Source: Pelotomaculum thermopropionicum SI (GTDB lineage Bacteria > Bacillota > Desulfotomaculia > Desulfotomaculales > Pelotomaculaceae). From it: a DNA stretch of 64,000 bases. Both the position numbers and the translations under genes were made by a program. The notes beneath the pieces were generated by a model. The model did no database searches and was not told where the DNA came from. It saw only the letters and a program-made list of their open reading frames with translations. Numbering within the stretch: the first letter of the stretch is position 1; every line of letters starts with the position of its first letter. Below, in pieces: positions 9,966-18,355 of the stretch. The stretch lies in contig AP009389.1 of NCBI GenBank assembly GCA_000010565.1, positions 1,922,001-1,986,000 on the forward strand, read 5' to 3'.

Positions 9966-10058
9966 CGGCGGTCCCTCCCGTATAATTTATATGCCCCGGC
10001 TTTCAGGAGCTGAACAAAAAATTTCAGGCGGCTTTTAAAGCCGCCGGTTTTATCATGT

Positions 10059-10832
10059 TCATATATGTTTTTTCATATGATTAAGCGCCGCCTTTTCCAG
10101 CCGCGACACCTGCGCCTGGGATATGCCGATTTCTTCGGCCACTTCCATCTGGGTTTTTCCTTCGTAAAAACGCAGAGTTAGAATCAGCTTTTCGCGGTCG
10201 CTAAGCTTTCTTAAAGCGTCCCTGATGGCGATGCCTTCCAGCCAGTTTTGATCCTGATTTTTCTCATCGCTGATCTGGTCCATCACAAAAATAGGATCGC
10301 CGCCGTCGTGGTAGATGGGCTCGAAAAGCGAAATGGGTTCCTGGATGGCGTCCAGGGCGAAAACTATTTCCTCCCTGGGCATTTTTAACTCGCAGGCGAT
10401 TTCGTTGATTGAAGGTTCGCGGGAGTATTTATTAACCAGAGCGTCCCTCACCTGCAGGGCCTTGTATGCCACGTCCCGGAGGGAACGGCTGACCCGGATC
10501 GGGTTGTTGTCCCTTAAATACCGGCGGATCTCGCCGATAATCATCGGCACGGCATAGGTCGAAAACTTTACGTTCTGGGACAGATCGAAGTTGTCAATTG
10601 CCTTCATCAGGCCGATGCAGCCCACCTGAAAGAGATCGTCTACATACTCGCCCCTGTTGGTAAAACGCTGGATAACGCTTAAAACAAGTCTGAGATTGCC
10701 GTTAATCAGCTTGGTCCGGGCGGAGGCATCCCCTTTATGCATGGCCTCGAACAAAGCTTTCATCTGACTTCCTGTCAGGACCGGGAGCTTGGATGTGTTG
10801 ACGCCGCAAATCTCCACCTTGTTCACCAGCAT
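10059..10832 (-). CDS. sigG: Forespore sigma factor SigG
   Basis: 257 residues from the ATG at 10832. KVEICGVNTSKLPVLT at the N-terminus is nearly invariant in SigG. Region 2 includes 'DDLFQVGCIGLMKAIDNFD', and region 4 has the helix-turn-helix 'TQMEVAEEIGISQAQVSRL'. It directs late forespore transcription, including germination genes. The frame extends five codons to a GTG, but GGAGG would then lie inside the gene; it is correctly spaced for the ATG. A SigF-type promoter is visible upstream. Confidence 0.96.
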   Translation of the reverse strand: MLVNKVEICGVNTSKLPVLTGSQMKALFEAMHKGDASARTKLINGNLRLVLSVIQRFTNRGEYVDDLFQVGCIGLMKAIDNFDLSQNVKFSTYAVPMIIGEIRRYLRDNNPIRVSRSLRDVAYKALQVRDALVNKYSREPSINEIACELKMPREEIVFALDAIQEPISLFEPIYHDGGDPIFVMDQISDEKNQDQNWLEGIAIRDALRKLSDREKLILTLRFYEGKTQMEVAEEIGISQAQVSRLEKAALNHMKKHI

Positions 10833-10882
10833 GGAATGGCCTCCCACCTTTTGTTAGGCTGATTCTTTTTTTATTTCAATGT

Positions 10883-10912
10883 CATTATTGCCACGGCCGG
10901 ATCTAATTATAC
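10883..10912 (-). promoter_or_regulatory. SigF/SigG-type promoter upstream of sigG
   Basis: On the minus strand GTATA (10908-10912), 15 bases, then GGCAATAATG (10883-10892). The SigF consensus is GywTA, about 15 bases, GgnrAnAnT, matched at nearly every defined position. The -10 is 51 bases from the sigG ATG. In B. subtilis sigG is first transcribed by SigF. Confidence 0.72.
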
Positions 10913-10952
10913 ATGAGCTTGCGCTGCGTAACAGGGGCAATTCTTTATTATA

Positions 10953-10979
10953 AAAAAGACTGCCTTTATTTTTGCAGCC
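10953..10979 (-). terminator. Terminator after sigE
   Basis: On the minus strand a short stem (GGCTGC/GGCAGTC type, with a G-U pair) around an A-rich loop is followed by TCTTTTTT, directly after the sigE stop. The stem is short. Confidence 0.55.
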
Positions 10980-11711
10980 CTATTCCATGCGGTGTATTTC
11001 CTTTTTCAGCCTTTTGATAATTCTTTTCTCCAGTCTGGAAATATACGACTGGGATATTCCCAGCAAATCGGCCACCTCTTTCTGAGTCTTTTCCGTTCCG
11101 TTGTTAAGCCCGAAGCGCAGTTCCATAATCCGGCGCTCCCGGCCGGAAAGCTTCTGAAGGGCCAGGTGCAAAAGCTTTTTTTCAATTTCGTCTTCAATAA
11201 ACTTATAAATTATGTCGTTCTCCGTGCCCAGCACGTCCGACAAGAGCAGTTCGTTCCCGTCCCAGTCAATATTCAGGGGCTCGTCAAAAGAGACCTCAGC
11301 GCGATTTTTAACGCTTCTTCTCAGATACATCAGGATCTCGTTTTCAATGCAGCGGGAGGCATAGGTGGCCAGCTTTATCTTCTTGGCCGGGTCAAAAGTG
11401 TTGACCGCCTTTATCAGCCCGATTGTCCCTATGGATACCAGGTCTTCAATGCCCACGCCGGTATTTTCGAACTTGCGGGCAATGTAAACCACAAGGCGTA
11501 AATTTCTCTCAATCAGGACGCTTCTTACCGCCCCGTCGCCCGACTCGAGCCGGCTGATCAGAAAGGACTCCTCATCTGTGGTCAGGGGCGGCGGCAGGGC
11601 CTCACTGCTCCCGACGTAATACACCCTGGGCCGGTAGCCCAGCCAGATCAAGAAGCGAATCAAGGCCAGGCGGAAGGTCCACCTCAGCCGCAAGAATTTA
11701 TTTAAACCCAC
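10980..11711 (-). CDS. sigE: Mother-cell sigma factor SigE (pro-sigma-E)
   Basis: 243 residues from the GTG at 11711 ([11 protein letters not shown]...), which has GGGAGGG six bases upstream; a longer TTG start is possible but poorly placed. The hydrophobic N-terminus (about 1-35) is the membrane-associating pro-sequence removed by SpoIIGA. Region 2 contains '[19 protein letters not shown]' and region 4 '[19 protein letters not shown]'. It drives early mother-cell gene expression. It lies directly after spoIIGA, as in other endospore formers. Confidence 0.96.
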
Positions 11712-11787
11712 ACTGCTCCCTCCCGTCCAAACCTCTTCTGGCAAATGCCCTTTACCGGGGGCTTAAATCTTTTTGCCCGCCCGAATT

Positions 11788-12702
11788 TTATCCCAAGCCT
11801 ATCAGTTCAGGTCCCACCAGGGCATGGTAAGAGTTGCCGGGATCGAGGCTGCTGTGGTAAATGGCCAGAACAACCTTTTCAGCCCGCAGTTGCCTGCCCT
11901 TTTGCTCTATAATCACCTCGTCCGGACGGTAGCCGACCATCAGCCCGCCAATCCGGCTGAGAGATTGAAAGGGAACGGCGCTAAAACGCCCGGCAAAGCG
12001 CTTCTCACCCAATAAGTTTAAAATTTGCCAGACATCGGGCTCGCCTTCTTTTTCAAAACAAGCCTGTACTTCAGGGGGAAGAAGAGGTTTTAAAGCCGCG
12101 TATTCAACCACCACAACCGGATGCCTGGTTAAAGGGTCCTTCAGATGGTTGCCGGTATCAAGCAGGGCTTCTAATTTCACCTGTTTCCCCTCCGATTTTA
12201 CGGAAAGGGGAATTTTAAAAAGGCCATCAAAACATCCTTTTTTTACCAGCGCACTGAAGCCTCTTCCCGCCGTCCAAAAGGCGGCCAGCCCCAGAACAAT
12301 CCCCGGCCAGAAATGTTCCGCAATGACCTCCACGGCACTGCCGGAACCGGCAACCCGGCCCTGGTGAGTAAAAAAAATCATCCCGAAAACCAGCCCGCCC
12401 AGAACAAAGGAGGCCAGGTAAAAACAGCCCAGGCAGGTCAGAAACTTAACGGGAGGAAGGGGGGCAAATACAGCAGCAGCAATAACTACCGAAAAGGCGG
12501 CCTTAAACCATGCTGAAAGGAAAAATTCCATTCCGGGAACAAACAGCGAAAGGGAATATGCCGCTCCAAGGCAAGCCCCTGCTACCAGCCTGCCCCTGCT
12601 CGCCGGCGTCCGGCTTAGTTTAGAGGCGGCCCACAGGATGGCGTAGTTCATAACTGCATTGCCGAGAAACACCTGGTCGAGGTAAACGGTGTACGCCGCC
12701 AT
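11788..12702 (-). CDS. spoIIGA: Sigma-E processing peptidase SpoIIGA
   Basis: 304 residues. About five membrane helices occupy 1-150 (MAAYTVYLDQVFLGNAVMN start), followed by a cytoplasmic aspartic-protease-like domain with the active-site sequence LLDTGNHLKDPLT near residue 180. It cleaves the SigE pro-sequence after signalling from SpoIIR. The ATG follows GGGAG. The gene sits 76 bases ahead of sigE. Confidence 0.94.
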   Translation of the reverse strand: MAAYTVYLDQVFLGNAVMNYAILWAASKLSRTPASRGRLVAGACLGAAYSLSLFVPGMEFFLSAWFKAAFSVVIAAAVFAPLPPVKFLTCLGCFYLASFVLGGLVFGMIFFTHQGRVAGSGSAVEVIAEHFWPGIVLGLAAFWTAGRGFSALVKKGCFDGLFKIPLSVKSEGKQVKLEALLDTGNHLKDPLTRHPVVVVEYAALKPLLPPEVQACFEKEGEPDVWQILNLLGEKRFAGRFSAVPFQSLSRIGGLMVGYRPDEVIIEQKGRQLRAEKVVLAIYHSSLDPGNSYHALVGPELIGLG

Positions 12703-12827
12703 AAAACCAGACTCCCAGCTTTTAAAATAAATTCCTGCTTAAAAAAGCAAAAAGGCCTGTGTTAGCATTATATTGCCTTTGTTAGACCTTTATGACAGCC
12801 CGGTTAAATAATAACTGCCCTGGCCTT

Positions 12828-12860
12828 ATTATACATCTCCAGGGCGTTGGAATTTGTCGG
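12828..12860 (-). promoter_or_regulatory. Candidate spoIIGA promoter with weak Spo0A-box-like site
   Basis: A perfect TATAAT on the minus strand (12828-12833) lies about 125 bases upstream of spoIIGA. A TTTGTCG element (12853-12859, plus orientation), partly like the Spo0A box TTTGTCGAA, sits near the -35 position, as expected for a Spo0A-activated promoter lacking a good -35. The evidence is a partial match only. Confidence 0.3.
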
Positions 12861-12960
12861 GTTATGGCAGGCTCCGGTATTTTTTTCCAAACAAATTACT
12901 ACAACAGGCGCTGTCCAAAAGCCAGGCCCCGGCCCGGCAGGTCGCAGCATGCCTGCATGG

Positions 12961-14010
12961 CTACCTTTCGATATATATACGGGGCTCTCCGGCTTCAACA
13001 ACCTCACCAATCCTGGCCGCGGCCACACCGGAAGCCAGTAAAGCGTTAACAGCAGCGCCGCCCTTTTCCTCCGGCACGGACATCAACAGGCCGCCTGAAG
13101 TCTGCGGGTCGGCCAGAATTAACTTGTCAAGCTCGTCGATGCCCTTCTCCCACCGCAGCCTGTTTTCCAGGTAACCAAGGTTGCGATAGGCCCCTGCCGG
13201 TATCATTCCCATAGCGGCCAGGGAACGGGCCTGCCCAAGCACGGGCACCCTGTCCAGCCAGATGCGGGCAGCGGCCCCGCTGGCAGCCATCATCTCGTAA
13301 AGGTGACCGAGCAGGCCGAACCCTGTTATATCGGTACAGGCATGCGCCCCGTATTCGGACATAACCTTGGCCGCCCGGTCGTTTAAGGCGGCCATCAGCC
13401 GCACCGCTTCGTTATAGGCCAAATCGTCCGCCAACTCTCCTTTTAAGGCGGTCGTAATAATGCCCGTTCCCAGGGGCTTGGTCAGGATCAGCGCATCGCC
13501 CGGGCGCGCCCCGGCATTGGTCATAACCCGGTCCGGGCTGACCAGGCCGGCAACGGCCAAACCGTACTTTGGCTCGTTATCTTCTATGGTATGGCCGCCT
13601 GCAATCAGGGCACCGGCTTCCTTCACCTTGTCGGCCCCGCCTTTGAGTATTTCCACCAGAACCTCCAGCGGCAAGGCCTTTGAAGGAAACCCGATAATGT
13701 TAAGGGCAATTAGCGGTTTCGCACCCATGGCGTAAATATCGCTAAGGGCGTTGGCCGCCGTAATCAAACCGAACGTATACGGGTCGTCAACCACTGGAGT
13801 AAAGTAGTCCACCGTCAGCACTATGGCAGTTTCGTCGTTTAAGCGGTAAACCGCTGCGTCATCGCAGGTGGAGGAGCCAACCAGCAGGTTCGGATCCTTC
13901 ATGGGGCTCAACCGGCACAGCACCTGTGCCAGGTCCTGAGGACCCAGTTTTGCCGCTCACCCGGCACAACTGGCCATCTGGGTAAGGCGGTACTTCTTTT
14001 CCTGCTGCAA
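12961..14010 (-). CDS. selD: Selenide, water dikinase, itself a selenoprotein (UGA at 13957-13959)
   Basis: SelD makes selenophosphate from selenide and ATP for selenocysteine and selenouridine synthesis. The uninterrupted frame starts only at 13923 and lacks the catalytic N-terminus. Reading upstream through one in-frame TGA (13957-13959) restores it: TTG start at 14010 with GAGGTGG seven bases before, then QQEKKYRLTQMASCAG-Sec-AAKLGPQDL. The Sec (residue 18) aligns with the catalytic Cys17 of E. coli SelD, and Lys21 follows. Downstream are the ATP-binding 'GSSTCDDAAVY' and 'DYFTPVVDDPYTFG' regions. The full length of 349 residues is normal for SelD. A hairpin resembling a bacterial SECIS follows the UGA. 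The gene lies between spoIIGA and ftsZ on the minus strand, with no other sel gene nearby. Confidence 0.93.
13914..13956 (-). promoter_or_regulatory. Candidate bacterial SECIS element of selD
   Basis: On the coding strand, 26 bases after the UGA, GGCACAG and CTGTGCC form a 7-bp stem whose apical part reads AGGUGCU. A GGU in the apical loop is the SelB-binding feature of the E. coli fdhF SECIS. The apical GGU lies about 32 bases from the UGA, inside the usual window. A second small hairpin (GGTCC/GGACC) lies between them. Confidence 0.65.
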
Positions 14011-14166
14011 CGTTATCCACCTCTCTTCTTTGCAGTAATTACTTACTTTCAGGCCCTCTTTCCGGGTCGATTATTCTCTGCTTCCCGCGGACACGGTTCA
14101 AGTTTTTTTCCCTGTTCCCCTTGATTTTACCCTTTCCGGTATAAATTTTACCTTCTGTCATTCATT

Positions 14167-14224
14167 GCCCTCCTCGAAAACCATTCTTTTGGTAGCCTTA
14201 TCTTTGGTGGAGGGCGCTTTTTTT
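14167..14224 (+). terminator. Orphan terminator-like hairpin on the plus strand
   Basis: GCCCTCC (14167-14173) pairs with GGAGGGC (14209-14215), followed by GC and seven Ts (14218-14224). Both flanking genes are on the minus strand, so no known transcript is served. The 234-base selD-ftsZ gap shows no other gene. Confidence 0.45.
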
Positions 14225-14244
14225 ATGCACATGCCAGCCGGCCA

Positions 14245-15294
14245 TCAGCGCCGGCGCAGAAAGGCCGGAATATCCAGGTCGTCGTTATTTGAAAAGGATT
14301 TGATCTCCAGTTCGGCCTTCGGACGCTCCTTTTTGCGGCCCCTCTGATCAAACCCGGTGGCAATGACGGTAACCCTTACTTCGTCTTCCATCCGCTCGTC
14401 GATTACCGCCCCGAAAATGATGTTGGCTTCGGGATCGGCAGCCTGGGCAATTATCTCCGCCGCTTCATTAACCTCGAACAGGCCGAGTGAAGTTCCGCCT
14501 GTAATATTTAACAGGACTCCCCTGGCACCCTCGATAGAAGTCTCCAGAAGCGGGCTGGAAATGGCGGTGCGGGCCGCCTCGGTGGCCCTGTTTTCACCGC
14601 TGGCCGTACCGATGCCCATCAGGGCCGACCCGGTTTCTTTCATGATCGTCTTAACATCGGCAAAATCCAGGTTAATCAGGCCGGGCACGGCAATAAGGTC
14701 TGAAATTCCCTGCACGCCCTGGCGGAGCACATCGTCCGCAATCCGGAAGGCCTCAACTATGGACGTGTGTTTTTCAATTACCTGCAAAAGCCTGTCATTG
14801 GGAATGGTAATCAGGGTGTCCACCTTGGCTTTGAGGTTTTCAATGCCGGCTTCGGCCTGGCTGGCCCTCTTGCGCCCTTCGAAAGTAAACGGCTTGGTTA
14901 CCACTCCCACGGTCAGAGCGCCAAGTTCCTTAGCCACTTCGGCCACTATGGGCGCGGCGCCGGTCCCCGTACCGCCTCCCATGCCGGCGGTTACAAAAAC
15001 CATATCCGACCCCTTCAGGGCCTGCACGATCTCATCGCGGCTTTCTTCGGCGGCTTTCTGGCCGATTTCGGGATTGCCCCCCGAGCCGAGCCCTTTCGTA
15101 AGTTTGGCGCCGATCTGAATCTTCTGGTTAGCCTGGGCCAGATAAAGGGCCTGGGCATCGGTATTTACCGCGATAAACTCCACACCTTTCAGCCCGGCGC
15201 TAATCATCCGGTTTACCGCGTTATTGCCCCCGCCCCCGACTCCTATCACCTTTATGTTGGCAAACTGGTCCAGTTCAAGCTCAAAATCAAGCAT
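14245..15294 (-). CDS. ftsZ: Cell division protein FtsZ
   Basis: 349 residues. Tubulin-like GTPase with the signature GGGTGTG at about 106-112, the N-terminal [13 protein letters not shown] nucleotide loop, and a T7-loop region with '[11 protein letters not shown]'. The C-terminal tail ends [12 protein letters not shown], the conserved peptide that binds FtsA, SepF and other partners. It forms the Z-ring at midcell and at the polar sporulation septum. GAGGAGG precedes the ATG. Last gene of the dcw block, after ftsA. Confidence 0.98.
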
Positions 15295-15392
15295 GCCTTA
15301 GTCCTCCTCTGTTTATTTCTGCCTGCCGGCGTTCAAACATTCATGCCCTGCCGCCGCACCGGGCGGAATCTCCCCGTTTAACTGACTGGCTG

Positions 15393-16499
15393 TCAACCGG
15401 CTCCTGGCCGGCCTAAAAATCTGCCTAAAAACACGCTTCTCCGCGCACGGCGGCTTTTAAGCTCCGGCCCTTTTTCGCGCAGATGCTTGCATCCGCATTT
15501 AACCAGGCCTAAGGCATTTGCGTAAGCCGGGCCTGAAACCGGCCCGGTTGTTTCCGTTTGACCAATCCTTACCGGCATCTGAAGCTTGTTTTCGGCTAAA
15601 AGGGCCAGTCCGCTCAGCCGGGACACACCGCCGCAAAAAACAGCCCCTCCGGGCAGAAGGCCGGGGTAATCGAACCTTTTCACAGCCATGGCTACCAAGT
15701 CTAAAATTTCGGCAATCCTGGCCTCGATTATGGACCGGATCATCGTTCTGGAAACCTTTTTTACGTCCCCTTCCTTTTCCCCGGGCAATTCATAAATTTC
15801 CCTGCTTCCGGAAGTCCCATCCAAGGAAAAATTATCAAGAACTTCCCCGGCCCGGGCGAGGGATGTCCGCAGGCCGATGGCAAGGTCTGCCGACAGATGC
15901 CCCCCACCAACAGGAAGGACCGCTGTTTCCCTGATTGCACTCCTGTCAATGATGCTAACTTTGGTAGAACCTGCGCCTATATCTACCAGGAGCGTCCCGA
16001 ATTCCCTTTCGGCCGGGCTTAAAACAGCCTCCGCTATGGCCAGCGGTCCGTATATTACATTCTGCACCGAAAGCCCGGCAATGCGGGCACTCTCGATAAT
16101 ATTGTTGACGTCGCGAATGCCGGCCGCCACTGCCCTGGCATTAAACTCCGCGCCGTACCCATGCCATTCCGGCAAAAATCGCGGCGGTATCAGTTGAAGC
16201 ACCTTTTCATCCGGGGTCACGTCCGCCGCCGCTTTAACAGTCACGTTTGCCCAGCTATAACCGGCATAGGCCAGGGATGCCTTTACCCCCGCCATTTGCT
16301 CGGCTGCATCCATTGCCTGCTTGATGGCCCCGGCCGCAGCGCCGGTGTCGGCAATAACCCCTTCCTCCAGGCCAGCGGACGGGCTTACTCCCGAACCTTT
16401 CAGTTCCGGCCGCCCGTTAACATATTCGGCAATAACAACAGCCGTCTTTGAAGTGCCTATATCAAGGCCGACCAGTAAAAAAGAACGTTCCTTGGCCAA
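15393..16499 (-). CDS. ftsA: FtsA-like actin-family division protein
   Basis: About 368 residues from the TTG at 16499, which has GGGAGG nine bases upstream; the open frame extends seven codons further. Actin/Hsp70-type ATPase motifs are visible: GLDIGTSKTAVVIAEY (phosphate 1), LLVDIGAGSTKVSII (phosphate 2) and 'GGAVFCGGVSRLSGL' (adenosine). It is shorter than typical FtsA (about 410-420). The C-terminus SVFLGRFLGR could be the membrane-targeting amphipathic helix. Its place directly before ftsZ supports a Z-ring membrane-anchor role. Sequence divergence leaves a PilM/EutJ-like relative as an alternative. Confidence 0.82.
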   Translation of the reverse strand: MAKERSFLLVGLDIGTSKTAVVIAEYVNGRPELKGSGVSPSAGLEEGVIADTGAAAGAIKQAMDAAEQMAGVKASLAYAGYSWANVTVKAAADVTPDEKVLQLIPPRFLPEWHGYGAEFNARAVAAGIRDVNNIIESARIAGLSVQNVIYGPLAIAEAVLSPAEREFGTLLVDIGAGSTKVSIIDRSAIRETAVLPVGGGHLSADLAIGLRTSLARAGEVLDNFSLDGTSGSREIYELPGEKEGDVKKVSRTMIRSIIEARIAEILDLVAMAVKRFDYPGLLPGGAVFCGGVSRLSGLALLAENKLQMPVRIGQTETTGPVSGPAYANALGLVKCGCKHLREKGPELKSRRARRSVFLGRFLGRPGAG

Positions 16500-16576
16500 C
16501 CCCGGGCACCTCCCGACCAAACTTTGCTTGTTTTGTTAGGATTCCACATTGAAGGCCATTTCCCTTTTTGCCAAAT

Positions 16577-16918
16577 TCATTTTTTTAAAAGATGGCGGCG
16601 GATAATGGCCAGGTTTTGGAACAGCCTGACACCGAACGCCACTACAGCAGCCAGGTAGAGGTCTATGCCCAGCCTTTCGCCGATGAAGGCCAGCCCTGCC
16701 GCCAGCAGGGCATTGCTAAAAAAACCGGATATAAAAATTGTGTTGTCGAAGTGTTCCTCCATTGCGGCGCGGATACCCCCGAACACCGAATCCAGCGCTG
16801 CCAGCGCCGCTACCGACAAGTACTTGGCGTAAGCCTGGGGCAGCACGAGAGGTATGTTAAGCCCGATGACAATGCCAACCGCCAGGCCGAGAACTGCCAG
16901 CCAGAGTCCCAGCCACAT
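16577..16918 (-). CDS. sbp: Small basic protein, DUF1290 family (Sbp)
   Basis: 113 residues with three hydrophobic helices, starting MWLGLWLAVLGLAVGIVIG and ending in a basic IIRRHLLKK. The family (B. subtilis Sbp/YlxX neighbourhood) sits between DUF881 genes and ftsA/ftsZ in many Firmicutes and Actinobacteria. It is membrane-associated with unknown function, possibly in division or envelope maintenance. Minus strand, between DUF881 and ftsA. Confidence 0.85.
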   Translation of the reverse strand: MWLGLWLAVLGLAVGIVIGLNIPLVLPQAYAKYLSVAALAALDSVFGGIRAAMEEHFDNTIFISGFFSNALLAAGLAFIGERLGIDLYLAAVVAFGVRLFQNLAIIRRHLLKK

Positions 16919-16938
16919 TTTTTAAAACCCCCTCCCGC

Positions 16939-17646
16939 CTACTTTACAGCCGGCCTGGCAAATTCATAATCCACGGTGCCGCTGTAAGCAGGTATAAATA
17001 TATTTTCGTTTGTTTGTACCGTTACCTTTATCCCCAGATCGCTTAAATACTCAGCAATGCCTCCTTTTATCTCCAGGCTGCTCTTCAGGGCAGCCTGGTT
17101 TCCAATTGCTTTTATTCTATACGGAGGGGAAAGTTTGGTCAGGTTTACATTAATATGGTTTCCCGCCATGCGGACTTCGCTTGTGGCAATAATGCGCTGA
17201 TCATTGACAGCCAGGGCTTCGGCGCCGGCACCGCGCAGATCATTTAAAACCTTGAGCAGATCATCGTCCCTGATTGTGTAAAGGCCTGTGCCGGCCGGTC
17301 CCGGAAGGTTTTCCAGAACCACCTCCACGCCCGGCCCCTGCACCGGGGTCAGCCCGGCATAGAGCCTGACCTTTGCCAGTTCGCTTTCCAGGGCGCCGGC
17401 GGCTTCATTGTAGCCTTTCCCGGCCTCATTGAGCTTGGCACTCAGATCGGCGGCTTCTTCCTGAAGCTGGGCAATGTCCCTTTCCACCTGCTTCTTCTCC
17501 ATGGCCAGCTCCTGAACCCTGTCGTAAGGAATTCCCCGGTCAATGCTGCTGGTGGTGCGAAATTGAAAGACCATTAACAGGCCCAGAACGGCTGCAACAA
17601 GAGTGATGGAAAAATAAATCGACCTGGTCATTGATTTAGATTTAGA
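16939..17646 (-). CDS. DUF881 family protein, copy 2
   Basis: About 235 residues from the TTG at 17646 (GGGAGAAGGGG upstream). The frame is open to 17688, where it overlaps the previous gene. One N-terminal membrane helix (YFSITLVAAVLGLLMVFQF), a coiled coil (about 45-95), then the DUF881 domain with 'LLKVLNDLRGAGAEALAVN' and 'PYRIKAIGNQAAL'. The family (YlxW/YlxX) is linked to division loci and has no proven activity. It is a diverged tandem paralogue of the gene before it. Confidence 0.85.
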   Translation of the reverse strand, partial: SKSKSMTRSIYFSITLVAAVLGLLMVFQFRTTSSIDRGIPYDRVQELAMEKKQVERDIAQLQEEAADLSAKLNEAGKGYNEAAGALESELAKVRLYAGLTPVQGPGVEVVLENLPGPAGTGLYTIRDDDLLKVLNDLRGAGAEALAVNDQRIIATSEVRMAGNHINVNLTKLSPPYRIKAIGNQAALKSSLEIKGGIAEYLSDLGIKVTVQTNENIFIPAYSGTVDYEFARPAVK

Positions 17647-17662
17647 CAAAACCCCTTCTCCC

Positions 17663-18355
17663 CTAACCTGCAGCTTTTGCATACTCAAACCCGATTGCGC
17701 CGCCGTAGGCAGGAACGGTAACCTGCGGCAGTTTTTTCACGGCTACCTGGATGCCCCAGAAGCGGAGGGTTTCCGCAACCCCGCCCCTCATTTTAAGGGA
17801 GCTGTCCAGAATGTCCGGGTCGCCGATGGCCGTTATTACATACGGAGGAGCGAGACGTTTTTTATTCACCAGGATGGTTGGGCCCGTACAGCGCACCTCG
17901 CTGCCGGCCAGAATCCTCTGGCCGTTTATGGAGATTGCCTCTGCCCCGGCCGCCTTCAGTTCATTTAATACCCGCAAAATATCCTCGTCATGCAAAACAA
18001 AGAGGTTTGGATTTTCGCCCGGTCTCAAGCTTATATTGCTGTCGTTCAGGGTCACCTCCACGCCCGGTCCGGTCAGTTCAGTCACTCCTGCCATGATGCC
18101 GACCTTCTCCAGTTCCTCCTTCAGCTCGGAAGCCCTGGGACCGGTGGTGATTTGCTCGAGTCTTCCCCGCAGGCTTTCCACCTCCGCCTGAAGCGCCTCC
18201 CGCTCTTTTTTCATCTGGTTTAACTGTTCATAAAGCTGCTGAGCCCTTTGTACCGGCTCTGCTTTCTGGATTTCTCTGGTCACCCGGAACTGGAAGGCCA
18301 GCATTATTCCCAGGACCAGGCCTACCACGGCAAGCGCCCACTGAAAGCTTTTCAA
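17663..18355 (-). CDS. DUF881 family protein, copy 1
   Basis: 230 residues, TTG start with GGAGG ten bases upstream. N-terminal membrane helix (ALAVVGLVLGIMLAFQF), coiled coil (about 35-75), then DUF881 with 'DILRVLNELKAAGAEAISIN' and 'PYVITAIGDPDIL'. Same architecture as the next gene, so a tandem duplication. It follows ftsQ directly in the dcw cluster. Probably extracytoplasmic, anchored at the membrane; role unknown. Confidence 0.86.
   Translation of the reverse strand: MKSFQWALAVVGLVLGIMLAFQFRVTREIQKAEPVQRAQQLYEQLNQMKKEREALQAEVESLRGRLEQITTGPRASELKEELEKVGIMAGVTELTGPGVEVTLNDSNISLRPGENPNLFVLHDEDILRVLNELKAAGAEAISINGQRILAGSEVRCTGPTILVNKKRLAPPYVITAIGDPDILDSSLKMRGGVAETLRFWGIQVAVKKLPQVTVPAYGGAIGFEYAKAAG

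Follow-up and report, generated by a model that had tools for sequence, protein, structure and literature searches.

The question raised by this locus is whether a TGA codon lying within the frame of a selenophosphate synthetase gene is read as selenocysteine (Sec), and which signal in the mRNA would direct that reading. The window, the whole stretch of DNA that was analysed, comprises 64,000 nucleotides (C1:1922001-1986000). The first-pass annotation, made from the letters and a list of open reading frames, had proposed that read-through of the TGA at 13957-13959 restores a SelD of 349 residues from a TTG start preceded by GAGGTGG, and that simple ORF calls miss its first 29 codons. The coordinates, the start and the ribosome-binding site all proved to be as claimed:

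12961..14010, minus strand: selD, selenide water dikinase / selenophosphate synthetase; 349 residues, putative Sec at residue 18, TTG start
13957..13959, minus strand: in-frame UGA, the putative Sec codon, at the E. coli Cys17 position in the UxxK motif
14017..14023, minus strand: ribosome-binding site GAGGTGG, 6 nt 5' of the TTG

The frame runs from the TTG at 14008-14010 to a TAG at 12961-12963, and the UGA at 13959 is reached 17 codons after the TTG at 14010. No alternative ATG, GTG or TTG is present in the 20 codons that separate the TTG from the in-frame TAA at 14071-14073. The mechanical ORF list gives only 12961-13923 in this frame, a product of 320 aa that begins at the GTG at 13923 and so lacks the 29 N-terminal codons.

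The read-through product scored 408.5 bits against TIGR00476 (NCBIfam selD, cut-off 125) over residues 8-315 and contains AIRS and AIRS_C domains; it is the single SelD above the cut-off in the source genome (1 contig, 3,025,375 bases). E. coli SelD (PDB 3u0o) belongs to the same family over residues 4-347 and carries Cys17 where Sec is predicted here. The alignment sets U18 on Cys17, the position at which Sec had been placed at first sight, and Lys21 on Lys20. The catalytic-loop motif reads G-U18-A-A-K21, with the lysine three residues past Sec; the residue two past Sec is Ala (U-A-A-K), whereas E. coli SelD has Cys19. On this evidence, and on that of the relatives and the mRNA given below, the gene almost certainly encodes a selenocysteine-containing selenophosphate synthetase, for which we infer Sec insertion, SelB binding and enzyme activity from the sequence.

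Such a protein is a known, ordinary kind of selenoprotein. In the parts of the sources that were available, Sec-SelD is described as among the most widespread bacterial selenoproteins and is listed for Desulfotomaculum reducens, Moorella thermoacetica and Carboxydothermus hydrogenoformans (PMC1794560, Table 3), and SelD with the UxxK motif is counted among the experimentally verified selenoproteins (PMC9312934). According to the available text of PMC4561486, 19% of the SelD genes in a prokaryotic reference set contain Sec, the position being the same in every case, and RNAz was able to recover the bacterial SECIS of the Sec-containing SelD genes. Compared with the known Sec-SelD as far as these texts describe it, the present gene encodes the same enzyme with UxxK (PMC9312934), an in-frame UGA and a SECIS in the coding region, and no essential difference was seen.

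The codon at this position was then compared across relatives, the nearest named ones found being Pelotomaculum species that are at most 76% identical. A protein search of the class gave a match in 111 of 113 genomes, and the best match contained one internal TGA in 106 of the 113 (a hand count of rows). The other seven are G104 and G106, in which this search gave no match, G084, whose match begins only past the UGA site and near a contig end, and G041, G081, G085 and G088, which show distant homologues only. From the class, 110 loci were fetched, a subset of the SelD places found in the search, and a further 80 named loci were kept from a genome collection, of which 33 have TGA, 39 have TGC or TGT and 8 could not be parsed. 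In all, 14 of the 190 loci were unparsed (8/80 named, 6/110 class), and the hairpin counts given below exclude them. The motif G-U-x-x-K was found in 137/137 parsed Sec loci, a count to be read with the fact that the parser requires nearly that motif. The aligned codons mark the position as a Sec/Cys site at which UGA is the rule within the class.

Several class genomes carry a second, more distant SelD, mostly also with one TGA. A pair of SelD genes that both contain an in-frame TGA was seen in G010, G017, G022, G023, G027, G034 and G035, and also in G068, G072, G074, G087, G112 and other class genomes. The motif SPGSGU occurs in 11 of the SelD loci read.

The genome was also searched for the machinery of Sec insertion, which the first-pass annotation had expected to lie elsewhere on the chromosome. 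The genes selA (620.1 bits) and selB (380.4 bits) are adjacent at C1:1485779-1489089, and tRNA-Sec lies at C1:993839-993932 (71.1 bits; anticodon tca by ARAGORN), so that the absence of selB or selC, which would have spoken against the proposal, was not found. The tRNA-Sec model gave 18 matches in all, and the two others above its gathering score were identified by ARAGORN as tRNA-Ser and tRNA-Cys. Other UGA-containing genes were found as well, namely two formate dehydrogenase (fdhA) frames (L130 and L132), each with one TGA and with A-R-L-U-H in the active-site motif. All of these loci, selA, selB, tRNA-Sec and both formate dehydrogenase frames, lie outside the window. The frame of L132 (C1:1799493-1800275) is formate dehydrogenase-like and has its TGA in the active site, with matches to the Fdh-alpha model in sub-cut-off pieces only; it is perhaps a divergent or split Sec-formate dehydrogenase.

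A SECIS prediction for the stretch downstream of the UGA had been suggested as a check, and a hairpin fitting the published bacterial SECIS (bSECIS) model is present there, here called H2:

13912..13932, minus strand: candidate SECIS hairpin H2, core stem 13914-13930, fitting the published bSECIS model
13921..13923, minus strand: apical loop GUG of H2, the same GTG that mechanical ORF calling uses as a start

With columns numbered from the U of the UGA as column 1, H2 occupies columns 28-48 and in the window sequence forms 9 bp closed by the loop GUG, at -13.6 kcal/mol and z -3.08. The bSECIS model, as set out in the available part of PMC13188914, has an apical loop of 3-9 nt, an upper stem of 4-16 bp, a G within the first two loop positions that is often followed by G or U, a distance of 16-37 nt from UGA to apical loop, and a minimum free energy of -7.5 kcal/mol or lower. 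Measured against that description, the 3-nt loop and 9-bp stem of H2 are both within limits, its loop GUG has the G where the rule places it, the UGA-to-loop distance of 33 nt lies inside the range, and -13.6 kcal/mol passes the energy limit. No Rfam SECIS family matched positions 10000-18000 at E up to 1; the sole Rfam match in that search was snoRNA-like (17935-17992) and far under its gathering score.

The hairpin was examined in 120 distinct sequences out of the 137 Sec loci and in 39 Cys sequences. Folding to -7.5 kcal/mol in the H2 stretch was seen in 73% of the Sec and 0% of the Cys sequences. GU stands at the first two loop positions in 104 of the 120 Sec sequences, a feature that is not diagnostic alone, since GU is encoded at these positions in many Cys genes as well. 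RNAalifold was run on a hand-picked alignment (A1) that joins the window sequence with 26 plus-strand loci, 27 sequences in all, and predicted H2 only. In A1, 6 of 12 pairs have changes on both sides; pair 33-43 occurs as A-U, G-C, G-U, U-A and C-G, and pair 31-45 as G-C, G-U, U-G and U-A. The proportion of paired cells in A1, 92.9%, is flattering, since the plus-strand Sec loci that were left out include, besides near-duplicates (L050, L051, L053, L054, L056, L060 and L061), also L068, L074, L077, L084, L087, L088, L093, L095, L111 and L117, and several of these pair poorly; the full-set counts include the omitted loci. Across the 120 Sec sequences H2 was 87.0% paired in register and 25.7-50.4% paired when slid by 1-3 columns, and pairs 31-45 and 33-43 formed in 86% and 82% of sequences against 48% and 64% expected from independent columns.

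The constraint imposed by the protein was accounted for by synonymous shuffling, in which a codon was swapped only between sequences that agree in the amino acid at its column. H2 pairing was 87.0% against 79.4% in the shuffles (0/1000 reached the observed value; 120 Sec sequences), and the mean folding energy in the Sec set was -8.05 against -5.49 kcal/mol (0/300). Synonymous shuffles ignore phylogeny, and the result held when the set was thinned to 40 sequences below 80% identity (74.6% against 67.0%, 0/1000). By group, H2 pairing was higher than in synonymous shuffles both for the remaining class families (73 sequences, 0/500) and for sequences from outside the class (20 sequences, 0/500), and showed no clear excess in the second paralogue (11 sequences, 195/500) or in the family of the source genome (17 sequences, 74/500), whose members vary little, so that neither H2 nor the second hairpin described below rises clearly above the null there. 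In the 39 Cys-SelD sequences H2 was 39.9% paired, equal to the null, and it was part of the minimum-energy fold of columns 4-54 in 81/120 Sec and 0/39 Cys sequences. By these comparisons H2 is a bacterial SECIS, constrained beyond coding and absent from Cys-SelD, that SelB would bind.

There is next to no probability that a sequencing error or a pseudogene accounts for the TGA, with Cys or Trp as the true codon. An error of this type would look like a lone in-frame stop, but no actual support for one was found. One TGA in the best SelD match of nearly every class genome rules out a sequencing error, related strains do not show the sense codon that would have betrayed it, every parsed Sec locus has its TGA in the G-U-x-x-K motif that the parser nearly requires, the full Sec machinery is in the genome, and a SECIS beyond coding constraint occurs only in UGA-bearing genes. 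It is also very improbable, if a shade less so, that translation starts internally at the GTG at 13923 and yields an enzyme without the N-terminus, the UGA merely closing a short upstream ORF. Mechanical ORF calling does give that start, but the 29 codons it discards hold the catalytic loop UxxK, which aligns with E. coli Cys17-Lys20 and is present in relatives, and the GTG itself sits within the SECIS loop. Mechanical calling cuts the catalytic loop off SelD by means of a false start that falls inside the recoding signal.

In the preferred reading, that of a Sec-containing SelD, translation from the TTG at 14010 would arrive at the UGA at 13959, where SelB carrying Sec-tRNA-Sec would bind H2 in the coding sequence and deliver Sec instead of termination, and translation would continue to give the 349-residue enzyme. 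In the synthesis of selenophosphate from selenide and ATP, Sec18 would do what Cys17 does in E. coli, so the enzyme would supply the selenium for its own Sec.

Between the UGA and H2 the sequence can form a second, shorter hairpin, here called H1:

13932..13944, minus strand: hairpin H1, GGUCC-UCA-GGACC, between the UGA and the SECIS, from folds and synonymous shuffles

H1 occupies columns 16-28 and starts 12 nt past the UGA. Alone in the window sequence it is unexceptional (z -0.60 for a 29-nt stretch), RNAalifold did not predict it in the 27 hand-picked sequences, and a 68-nt fold of 13901-13968, which starts 9 nt before the UGA, contained no H1 and placed H2 within a longer irregular stem. 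Over the 120 Sec sequences H1 was 72.5% paired in register and 24.5-56.3% paired when slid by 1-3 columns, and the pairing in register exceeded that of synonymous shuffles (66.8%, 0/1000). Independently of register, the mean folding energy of columns 11-29 in the Sec set was -5.39 against -3.39 kcal/mol in shuffles (0/300), and -4.97 against -2.92 kcal/mol in the thinned set (0/300). A slight excess was found in Cys-SelD too (-2.08 against -1.78 kcal/mol, 13/300). H1 in this register was part of the minimum-energy fold in 49/120 Sec and 1/39 Cys sequences, and a hairpin of at least 3 pairs somewhere in columns 11-29 was present in the minimum-energy folds of 86/120 and 8/39, respectively. By group, H1 exceeded the synonymous null in the other class families (0/500) and outside the class (69.0% against 64.5%, 6/500), showed no clear excess in the own family (17 sequences, 84/500), and in the second paralogue gave 500/500, there being no variation to test in those 11 sequences.

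The pairing excess of H1 rests mostly on pair 18-26, in which the last base of codon 6 meets the second base of codon 9; pairs 19-25 and 20-24, farther in, are present in just 55-56% of the 120 Sec sequences. Where codon 9 is Asp, column 18 is U in 35/39 sequences; where it is Ala, column 18 is G in 13/15; where it is Val, codon 6 is GGA in 10/13; and where it is Thr, the pairing GGG is used in only 24/49. As judged from these alignments and shuffles, Sec-SelD genes favour a hairpin in the H1 stretch to a degree that coding does not account for, but some of the folds lack it.

The position of H1 bears on the distance between the UGA and the loop that SelB would bind. In selD the GGU starts 32 nt past the UGA, and in fdhA of L130 it starts 18 nt past; read by eye, the GGU also stands at 18 nt in fdhA of L132 and in E. 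coli fdhF. The SECIS of E. coli fdhF and of the genome's own fdhA is likewise a coding-sequence hairpin past the UGA with GGU in its apical part, and selD differs from both in its spacing and in the additional short hairpin between. The excess in selD is 14 nt, and H1 occupies 13 nt. According to the available part of PMC4513850, about 11 nt of mRNA lie covered within the channel of the ribosome.

We propose that H1 is a folded spacer, which is its simplest reading and one that we infer from the anatomy of the mRNA. At the entry of the mRNA channel H1 would fold up 13 nt, and its folding would return the SelB-binding loop, which lies 14 nt farther away than in fdhA, to its usual reach. The wider claim, that the recoding signal of Sec-selD mRNAs consists of two hairpins, in which H1 shortens the path to an fdhA-like effective distance, is tentative, and on the sequences compared here we would think it rather unlikely. 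If it were true, one SelB would serve two spacings, and part of the spread in bacterial SECIS distances, 16-37 nt, would be explained by folded spacers; the contrast between two genes of a single genome, fdhA with 18 nt and selD with 32 nt and a hairpin favoured in the excess, offers a simple and testable account of why these distances vary.

Slightly more weight, though still short of a probable explanation, is given to the view that H1 is no spacer, and either arises incidentally from the choice of codons or belongs to a different, lower SECIS structure. The minimum-energy fold of 13905-13956 is a three-way junction in which columns 11-14 pair with 47-50, and that of 13901-13968 is a long irregular stem. 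Pairing of the lower stem amounts to 88% in the own family, a value reached by 21/500 synonymous shuffles, and to 78.1% against 76.1% in the shuffles of 121 sequences (2/500). Outside the class, however, it is no better than the null (411/500), whereas H1 there exceeds it (6/500), and folding of the H1 stretch is above the synonymous null overall.

The folded spacer may be compared with the Sec recoding elements (SRE) of eukaryotes, as described in the available text of PMC4561486: these elements of SPS and other selenoprotein genes are also stem-loops beside the Sec UGA and are thought to aid recoding, but in the genes that carry them the true SECIS is in the 3' UTR, whereas H1 lies between the UGA and a bacterial SECIS. 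No mention of a tandem hairpin or of the spacing argument was found in the main texts of the open literature, as far as these were available. Only these two points may be unreported, and a supplementary figure cited in the available text of PMC4561486 may already show H1.

The gene selD is embedded in a cluster, ftsZ - spoIIGA - sigE - sigG (window positions 10059-15294), in which sigE and sigG scored 422.4 and 502.9 bits. The features next to selD are:

14245..15294, minus strand: ftsZ, the upstream neighbour (TIGR00065, 462 bits)
14039..14161, minus strand: 40-codon ORF, GAGGAGGG upstream, between ftsZ and selD; no family match
11788..12702, minus strand: spoIIGA-like gene, the downstream neighbour (TIGR02854, 204.4 bits, just below the cut-off of 209.55)

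The arrangement was followed in 18 loci of the own family, drawn from the 25 family genomes in the class search. A C-terminal FtsZ motif was found upstream of selD in 16 of the 18, at a distance of 1.1 kb in one case, and one of the two loci that lack it has just 132 bases upstream. A SpoIIGA-like motif followed selD in 13 of the 18 (about 1.5 kb examined).

The 40-codon ORF at 14039-14161 (MTEGKIYTGKGKIKGNREKNLNRVRGKQRIIDPERGPESK) matched no Pfam or NCBIfam family and is probably not part of recoding. It has a strong ribosome-binding site, and 40-codon ORFs whose C-terminal half is similar (GNR..., IDPE-GPE-K) occupy the corresponding place in two other genomes (L025/L056 and L028/L058).
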